Assembly (NCBI RefSeq): GCF_032116555.1
Contig: NZ_CP134949.1
Coordinates: 62,001 to 126,000, forward strand
Reading direction: 5' to 3'
DNA from: Halobaculum sp. XH14
GTDB lineage: Archaea > Halobacteriota > Halobacteria > Halobacteriales > Haloferacaceae
DNA length: 64,000 nucleotides
Positions 30,697-43,094 of the stretch are shown one piece after another (within the stretch, counting starts at the first letter, position 1; every line of letters begins with the position of its first letter). The notes under the pieces are model-generated. The model was not told the origin of the DNA. It was given only the letters and a program-made list of their open reading frames with translations, and made no database searches. A program made the position numbers and the translations under genes.

Positions 30697-30775
30697 TCCG
30701 CCGGACTACCCACGGCGGCACGAGCGGTAGTCGGGGGAGCGGCGCTCGGCCGAGTTCCCGCAGGGGGAGGGAATG

Positions 30776-30890
30776 GAAGGGGCCGCGGCTCTCGGGGAAC
30801 CCCGGACCCGTAAGCACCGCAGGAGCGACCGCAGGAAGCGGCGAGGAGCACAGCGCGGTCCGCGGGAGCCGAGAGCCGCGGGGGCTTCCG
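30776..30890. repeat. Foldback repeat element, copy A
   Basis: It is bounded by inverted repeats at 30776-30796 and 30870-30890: an outer 5-bp match (GGAAG/CTTCC), a GGG/GGG mismatch, then 13 perfect pairs (CCGCGGCTCTCGG). Internal blocks AAGCACCGC and GAGGAGCACAGCG recur in copy B at 42682-42848. Non-coding; possibly a miniature mobile element or a structured RNA. Confidence 0.6.
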
Positions 30891-31023
30891 AGGCGGTCCG
30901 AACGGGGCGGGTGGCTGCTCCAGGTACGGTGATACAGGAGACGACTGATGACACACGGGGAAACCGACCGGACCACACGCACCACGAGAAGGCTTACGTT
31001 GGCTCCCCCAATACCCCGACTCG

Positions 31024-40103: not shown

Positions 40104-42173
<2,070 letters not shown>

Positions 42174-42476
42174 TGACGGGGGCAGGGGCCCGAGTCACTT
42201 GACGGACGCGGTTGGGGTGGCTGACAGGCGGCACGGGTGGCCGGGTCATCGGCTCGAAGCCGAGGCCGACCCGGGGTCCGCTCGGACCCGCTGGCGGGGC
42301 GGTGTGCCGCGCGACCGCGTTTCGCCCCGCGACATCGGTCACGTCACGGGGCGTCTGGTGCCGGTATCACTGATAAAATTTCGCCGATGCAACTGACTAG
42401 CCACCTGGCGCGCGACCGCTCGTGCGAGGCTCACGCGAGCGGAGTCGTTCGAAAATCGAAGAGTTTCGTGATGCTG

Positions 42477-42743
42477 TCGGATTTCGACGGAATCCGACCG
42501 CTGACGGGAAACCGTCGGTTTCCCGTACTGACGAAAGACGCCCTGGCGTCTTTCGAACCACGAGGGTGAGTTCCGAGGAGCTCGCTCCGAGGTAAGACGA
42601 GCACCGGAGGACTGAGCGAAGCGAAGGAGCGAAGAGCACAGGAGGCTGGGGAGGGTGAGGCGCGGTGCGGTGGGTGGGACTGAAAGGGGCCGCGGCGTTC
42701 ACGGGCGCTTGCGCCCGTGAATTCGGGAGAGCGTGCTCTCCCG
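42477..42743. repeat. Five perfect hairpins in series
   Basis: Perfect stems: 42477-42497 (7 bp), 42504-42526 (10 bp, 3-base loop), 42532-42555 (11 bp, loop CT), 42698-42721 (11 bp, loop TT) and 42724-42743 (9 bp, loop GT). The tiny loops and lack of coding sequence suggest selection for structure, as RNA or as cruciform-like DNA. Confidence 0.75.
42595..42660 (+). repeat. Dispersed repeat block (related copy at 49674-49730)
   Basis: Shared landmarks, in order, are GAYGAGCACC, a stretch of GAGCGAA-like units, and GGCTGGGGAGGGTG. The middle differs between copies. Non-coding in both places. Confidence 0.5.
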
Positions 42744-42848
42744 TAAGTCGGCGCAGGCGCGGACCGACAAGCACCGCGGGCGAGCGAGCGAAGCGAGTGA
42801 GACGAGGAGCACAGCGGCCGCACCGAGCCGAGCGCCGCGGGGCCTTTC
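42682..42848. repeat. Foldback repeat element, copy B
   Basis: Terminal inverted repeats GAAAGGGGCCGCGGCG (42682-42697) and CGCCGCGGGGCCTTTC (42833-42848) match at 14 of 16 positions. Internal blocks AAGCACCGC and GAGGAGCACAGCG match copy A at 30776-30890. Two additional hairpins lie inside this copy. Confidence 0.6.
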
Positions 42849-43013
42849 GAGGTGTGTACCACACCGACCTAACCAATCCTCGATCCGACAGCCGAGAGGG
42901 ATTTCGAGGCAGCTTGCCAGCCGGACATAACCACCCAGAACAACCGAAATCATCCACCCGGAACCACGCGAACCCACGCAACGTTTTTGTCCGAACACGC
43001 CACAGCACCCGAC

Positions 43014-43094
43014 ATGGCACGAGAACCCGCCATCGACCGCACCGTCCCGCAGCCGACGACCGGCGGGTTCGCCTTCTTTTTCCGCCGCGCCTGA
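43014..43094 (+). CDS. Phe-rich leader peptide of pheST (candidate)
   Basis: A 26-codon open frame (ATG 43014, TGA 43092). Its last ten residues are GGFAFFFRRA, four Phe in five positions, in a proteome where Phe is a minor residue. The TATA-like GTTTTTG at 42983-42989 is centred 28 bases before the ATG, so transcription would begin at the ATG and translation would be leaderless. It lies 180 bases upstream of pheS on the same strand. Bacterial pheST has an analogous Phe-rich leader (PheM). The role as an attenuator sensing Phe-tRNA is inference. A chance open frame is possible, but unlikely given the matching promoter, hairpins and downstream gene. Confidence 0.6.
   Translation: MAREPAIDRTVPQPTTGGFAFFFRRA

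Follow-up and report, generated by a model that had tools for sequence, protein, structure and literature searches.

A mosaic dispersed repeat with a conserved, covarying core between uvrB and pheS of Halobaculum sp. XH14

Introduction

Between uvrB and pheS of Halobaculum sp. XH14, five perfect hairpins are crowded into a short non-coding interval behind a TATA-like box. An initial annotation of the window (the whole stretch of 64,000 nucleotides analysed here, from contig NZ_CP134949.1) read them as a possible structured RNA expressed from that box or, alternatively, as an array of DNA cruciforms or protein sites. The question that the locus raises is thus what these hairpins are, and how they came to stand between these two genes. 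The surroundings have a haloarchaeal character. By the calls of a home-made codon-score gene finder, uvrB lies on the minus strand with its ATG at 42173, no gene is called over the next 1.1 kb or so, and pheS and pheT follow on the plus strand.

Results

The five stems are present at the places proposed for them. Four are tight-looped, with 11 bp and a loop of 1 at 42504-42526, 11 bp and a loop of 2 at both 42532-42555 and 42698-42721, and 9 bp and a loop of 2 at 42724-42743; the remaining one, read off the sequence, has 8 bp and a 7-nt loop at 42476-42498. Their origin by chance had been judged unlikely, and this judgement stands: when perfect stems of at least 7 bp with loops of 1-4 were counted, a definition under which the 8-bp stem falls outside, dinucleotide shuffles of 42398-42743 gave a mean of 0.139 hairpins, and in none of 1000 shuffles was even the observed number of four reached. 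The same interval has the highest hairpin density of the window in 346-nt steps. In agreement with the earlier view that no protein is read from it, the gene finder calls none between uvrB and pheS, and the whole window contains no tRNA and no Rfam match at the gathering threshold. The TATA-like box also exists (TGATAAAATTT at 42370-42380 on the plus strand), but its assignment to the hairpins did not hold. Read on the minus strand as CGAAATTTTATCA, it lies some 200-210 nt upstream of the uvrB ATG, outside the repeat described below and within a conserved uvrB-upstream region common to two congeners (G001 and G002), which carry GAGGGTTTATC or GAGGGTTTTTATC at the same place; homology with G001 stops at 42378. 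Because the box lies within conserved uvrB-upstream sequence, a promoter facing the hairpins is rejected.

The interval is not unique. Against its own genome it gave 164 blastn matches, and in the 40 regions inspected these matches split into modules with sharp borders. A model built from 14 uninterrupted copies found 102 places at E<=1 and 88 at E<=0.01 in the own genome (150 scored candidates), and 77 matches at E<=1e-6 when applied to 80 own loci. This multiplicity rules out a one-off non-coding RNA gene. The same first model matches 39 of 60 relatives, and a cross-species model matches 97 of 116 genomes sampled within the class, in 39 of 46 genera, leaving 19 genomes without a match. Copy counts per genome are lower bounds, as no more than about 55 were scored with the first model and 32 with the cross-species one. 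An exact 17-mer scan of a species collection returned at least 120 stretches; among the 80 matches listed, 78 bear haloarchaeal names, one is from an uncultured archaeon and one is a Prevotella record. Thirty plasmid records match, all haloarchaeal among the 20 matches listed; no phage record matches, and no viral contig contains the exact 17-mer. There are thus dozens of copies in this genome and a family across the class. A variant core with a different apical part (..CAGCGACCCCTATC..GATATGTCGGT..AGCGACC..) was seen in Haloarcula vallismortis and Halorussus amylolyticus (L206 and L208). We did not find the repeat family described in full-text searches judged by titles and the starts of abstracts, or in passages of PMC12306157 and PMC2229807.

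The interval is best read as one copy, at about 42397-42870 on the plus strand, of a mosaic, non-coding, dispersed repeat, the nesting of which was deduced from copies that lack one or another part. The copy opens with the centre and start of a 5' domain (..GCGCGCGACCGCTCGTGCGAGG; 42397-42429), a string that recurs unchanged in other copies and at the orthologous site of G002, where a remnant carries it. This is followed by module D, a double-hairpin insert (42430-42595) divided into 42430-42444 and 42561-42595 by module A, a 116-nt hairpin array (42445-42560) that sits in the loop of D and holds three of the five stems. Another copy (L113) has D without A, against which A appears as a clean gap, and a further one (L035) has neither. 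The remainder of the 5' domain (GACGAGCACC..GGAGGCTGGGGAGGGTGAGG..; 42596-42671), delimited by comparison with other copies, leads into a structured core (GGGTGGGACTGAAAGGGGCC .. GGGGCCTTTCGAGG; 42672-42852) with an outer helix P1 (42682-42686 with 42844-42848) and a helix P2, to which the model matches at C1:104715-104858 with 45.9 bits. The other two stems lie in module C, a double-hairpin insert (42698-42746) that splits the 5' strand of P2, and the predicted fold keeps P2 around it. The 3' tail of the repeat and its junction with the pheS-side segment (42853-42870) were placed by comparison with other copies and with the congeners. In other copies A-like and C-like units occupy other core positions, and A-like units are found inside the core of six (L004, L010, L017, L019, L023 and L039). 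A second, uninterrupted core copy lies in the window at 30765-30899 on the plus strand (C1:92765-92899, 114.6 bits). The five hairpins therefore come from nested palindromic inserts (D within the 5' domain, A within D, C within P2), and the cluster noted initially is the sum of these insertions. Further units resembling GGGGGCTTTCGAGG follow the core on its 3' side (L031 from 2210, and other own copies), with 12 gaps in 45 copies of which eight are exactly 57 nt; a coding or CRISPR-like nature of this 57-nt downstream repeat was considered.

The core, about 115-180 nt long, has a conserved and covarying structure. The consensus fold of the 14 uninterrupted own copies has 18 of 32 pairs compensated. 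Across the own matches on the model, standard pairs fill 93.6% of 2377 pair cells and both sides change in 27 of the 32 pairs; covariation scores 0.442, compared with 0.131 in shuffled and 0.05-0.08 in slid alignments. The alignment behind all these figures was fitted to the model and hence leans toward it. P1 itself covaries, with 16 sequences of the own-genome set changed on both sides at one pair. A structure-free alignment of 28 sequences, three of them own and 25 taken one each from other haloarchaeal genomes, 26 genomes in all, has 20 of 28 predicted pairs compensated. For this set 39 genomes were tried, 13 of which gave no core by pattern, and L208 was excluded for its different apical part. 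Exact foot motifs served to pick this set and those used below for P2 mismatches and loops, so that the foot and outer helix are constant in them by construction. In two Natrinema species, at a site with seemingly the same flanking genes by eye, the P2 arms differ and yet each is complementary (L167 and L178). Compensatory changes in relatives had been suggested at the outset as a check, and pairing is indeed kept, as demonstrated for the core that holds the hairpins rather than for each inserted hairpin. Such cross-species compensation is as found in a functional structured RNA; a folded single-stranded DNA would look alike. Conservation of a shape across a class by compensatory change is unusual among dispersed repeats.

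Isolated mismatches in P2 were counted in 177 distinct copies, keeping only those with at least seven of the first ten P2 positions paired, and comprised 31 G.T, nine A.C and 30 others, beside 1945 Watson-Crick pairs. G.T exceeds A.C by 24 to 6 outside the own genome and by 7 to 3 inside it. A double-stranded cruciform would lack such a bias, and the excess therefore argues that one strand folds alone, as RNA or as one DNA strand, although strand-biased deamination could mimic the bias and an RNA gives the same one. The loops bear on the choice between the two molecules. In 150 cores, with scoring that admitted G.A pairs and with counts that refer to copies rather than independent events, the best apical hairpin has a triloop in 112, against 38 in shuffles, and a C-GNA-G apical loop in 58, where mononucleotide shuffles average 1.8. 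Only seven cores have tetraloops, none of them GNRA or UNCG, and UUCG never occurs. GNA triloops are unusually stable in DNA, and for this reason we lean toward single-stranded DNA over RNA as the folded core strand. P1 spans a foot of the form GGGTGGG..GGGG..GGGG, of which GGGxGGG, GGGG and GGGG are all kept in 60 of 77 own copies; this G-tract foot is predicted from its sequence to be one that could form a G-quadruplex.

The own copies lie between genes, as called by codon score, and show no fixed orientation to a gene that they might serve: the orientation classes of the flanking genes number 25, 21, 18 and 12 among 77 copies, one being without gene calls, which is as expected at random. 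A family-wide role as terminator or leader is thus unlikely, and no shared promoter was seen by eye upstream of 45 copies. Together with the recurrence of the modules in 40 regions and the attachment of the TATA-like box to uvrB, this random orientation tells against a single promoter-driven RNA gene. What survives of the initial alternatives is closer to a DNA hairpin or protein site than to a single RNA expressed from its own promoter. Among 85 matches on C1, all eight pairs less than 900 nt apart are divergent, as are five 17-mer pairs, 22-31 nt apart, in other species. The divergent pairs have matching outer ends (CTCGAAAGCCCC.. and ..GGGGCTTTCGAG); these are candidate terminal inverted repeats, and solo copies have one end of this kind. 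Along the chromosome there is no strand trend, with 34 of 68 neighbouring singles alike.

The history of this copy can be read from its orthologous sites. At the uvrB site the full mosaic is found here. In G001, which is empty, the homologous flanks stand 18 nt apart, and what G002 retains is a remnant with the beginning of the repeat joined to its 3' end. A comparison of these three states gave no clear target-site duplication, the flanks being too diverged to define one. In both congeners trpS is followed by 0.7-0.9 kb (692-931 nt) in which no repeat was seen and then by pheS-pheT, while uvrB lies elsewhere, adjoining the gene that follows pheT here. The pheS-side segment begins here at the 3' end of the repeat, and a gene-order junction thus lies at this copy. 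The own order differs from that of the relatives at three junctions (trpS/MATE, uvrB/pheS and pheT/next gene), with the repeat seen at one only; the second copy in the window (30765-30899) is also at a synteny break. At six of 20 repeat loci in G002, a long flank also occurs at a repeat locus of the own genome, in an uncontrolled count on flanks of 1.5-2 kb, among which diverged ones may escape. One of the six has both flanks in common with its own counterpart; the other five have one flank in common with any own locus, and among these five is a locus that joins the flanks of two different own loci. At some other orthologous sites the relatives' copies have shrunk to remnants, and the copy is missing from two other genera. 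Congener remnants at L114 (1900-4420) and L127 (1880-2620) are shrunken or degenerate with their outer ends preserved, from which internal deletion seems to be a frequent fate. Spread, plasmid carriage and presence or absence at given sites speak for past mobility, and shared sites that look inherited and decaying speak for the age of the family.

A Y1 transposase (RAYT or IS200/605 TnpA) in this genome is ruled out, as Y1_Tnp (PF01797) has no match in it; five of 14 control genomes match, including Haloferax volcanii. A mobilising enzyme for the repeat was not found, in what covered Y1_Tnp and the neighbouring genes of nine plasmid regions. On plasmids the repeat has a recurrent neighbour. 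In seven of nine plasmid hits examined, among the 20 listed, a conserved gene for a protein of about 290 aa has the repeat upstream, at about 445-555 nt and in divergent orientation. The C-terminal part of this protein resembles the RPA OB fold (NCBIfam replication factor A, E 1e-15 to 3e-18, below the curated cut-offs). At the relatives' loci of this RPA-like gene, the core is upstream and divergent in 11 of 27. Dependence of the repeat on this plasmid protein is unsupported, as some repeat-rich genomes lack it; G025, for example, has at least 39 core matches and no such protein at E<=1e-15. The gene occurs on haloarchaeal plasmids (L319-L326 and L328-L354) and in the own genome at C2:78207-79064. 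Upstream of it are about 430 nt of conserved DNA rich in inverted repeats (CCATTCCGGGC..GCCGGGCTAAA), with GGGCTAAA in 22 of 27 loci and only sub-threshold miRNA matches in Rfam; this DNA is a candidate plasmid origin or large RNA.

Discussion

We regard it as somewhat probable that the hairpins belong to a MITE/ERIC-like, strand-specifically folded and recombinogenic repeat with a putative partner protein. In the core, one strand only, the GGGTGGGACTGAAAGG strand, would fold and work on its own, more probably as single-stranded DNA exposed in replication, transfer or repair than as RNA, and a putative trans-acting enzyme or binding protein for single-stranded DNA may recognise P1 or the G-tract foot. 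The family would have spread as a MITE-like element, with palindromic modules gathering in its loops, and its copies may be substrates for ectopic recombination, by which pheST would here have been joined to the uvrB-side copy. A bolder form of this explanation makes the repeat a class-wide folded single-stranded DNA element, with a strand-specific hairpin, a G-tract foot and GNA minihairpin loops, that acts as a site of priming, transfer or recombination. We consider this form unlikely; if true, archaea would have in this element a counterpart, in principle, to single-strand origins or to folded recombination sites, and one that is carried on chromosomes and reshuffles gene order.

Several other explanations share part of this evidence. 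The core may be a structured non-coding RNA of many transcribed copies, by read-through as proposed for ERIC and NEMIS or as a small-RNA family. The strong compensatory change, the excess of G.T over A.C on one strand, the invariant inner letters of the 28-sequence alignment (such as AG.AC and the GCGCAG region) and the preservation of the fold around module C all agree with this, against which stand the lack of a gathering-level Rfam family in the window, the random orientation to genes, the lack of a shared promoter by eye at 45 copies, loops of the GNA triloop type and not GNRA or UUCG, and the scarcity of wobbles in P2 (31 G.T to 1945 Watson-Crick pairs). We hold an RNA to be doubtful, yet deserving of serious consideration. 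The near-perfect pairing of hypervariable arms, the internal deletion and expansion at orthologous sites and the absence of the uvrB-site copy from G001 would equally be expected of functionless palindromic debris, in which each hairpin arm is corrected in replication against its own other arm. Such debris is improbable in view of unpaired inner letters that are invariant across the class, wobbles that are asymmetric between strands, the presence of the family in 97 of 116 sampled genomes and the divergence of all eight close pairs. It is very improbable that the element is a terminator, attenuator or promoter element serving uvrB or pheS, as its location between these divergent genes and the Phe-rich leader ORF before pheS might suggest: copies of the family take random orientations to genes, the sequence around the TATA-like box is common to G001, which has no repeat there, and both G001 and G002 have the pheS leader ORF behind trpS, with no repeat seen in the 692-931 nt.

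The strand-specifically folded, MITE-like repeat that we favour has parallels in bacteria. ERIC, or IRU, is a small repeat, 127 bp in length, that is dispersed between genes and gives stable stem-loop transcripts; the passages of PMC2229807 used here class it among bacterial MITEs. The haloarchaeal repeat is likewise small, intergenic, dispersed and structured, a comparison in kind only, but belongs to another lineage and is distinguished by divergent pairing, nested palindromic modules, a G-tract foot and C-GNA-G loops; for the 7-bp TIR, target-site duplication and terminal TA of ERIC no counterpart is established in it. The Correia or NEMIS repeats are hairpin-forming elements of 107 and 155 bp, the long form having an extra 50-bp internal sequence (PMC2229807, in the same passages). 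Their 24-bp TIR and target-site duplication are not established here, and the haloarchaeal family is class-wide rather than confined to one genus. REP/BIME elements with RAYT transposases are short intergenic palindromes in mosaic arrays and many copies (PMC2817692). Ours is also an intergenic, multi-copy mosaic of palindromes, in contrast with a longer core of several covarying helices, and the Y1 HUH transposase (RAYT) that would mobilise such elements was not found in this genome. Archaeal palindromic repeats are reported by the RepRanger survey of bacterial and archaeal REPs (PMC12306157); its main text has no word starting with 'halo', and the passages of it drawn on here describe no covarying core of this kind. 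By analogy, our repeat may resemble ERIC, NEMIS and REP/BIME in its working, and we claim membership in none; what sets it apart from them is its class-wide covariation, together with its nested modules and divergent pairing. The BOX elements of Streptococcus are modular mosaics of hairpin-forming boxes, alike in this respect and different in sequence, host domain and the divergent pairing of the haloarchaeal repeat.

Many haloarchaeal genomes thus hold copies, some of them dozens, of an element for which the window gave no Rfam match. Clusters of hairpins between the genes of haloarchaea may be fragments of this mosaic repeat. If the fold is one of DNA, it would point to an archaeal system for recognition of single-stranded DNA structure and for reshuffling of gene order; if RNA, to a very abundant undescribed archaeal RNA family.

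The leader of pheS contains a short ORF, MAREPAIDRTVPQPTTGGFAFFFRRA (43014-43094, plus strand), that follows an AT-rich box and precedes inverted repeats. We did not find an F-rich haloarchaeal pheS leader ORF described, in literature seen in part. Bacterial pheM is a Phe attenuation leader, and by analogy the haloarchaeal ORF looks like one as well. A pattern match found an F-rich leader ORF upstream of pheS at 20 of 30 loci (the own and those of 29 relatives), with GFGFFF in nine of the 20.
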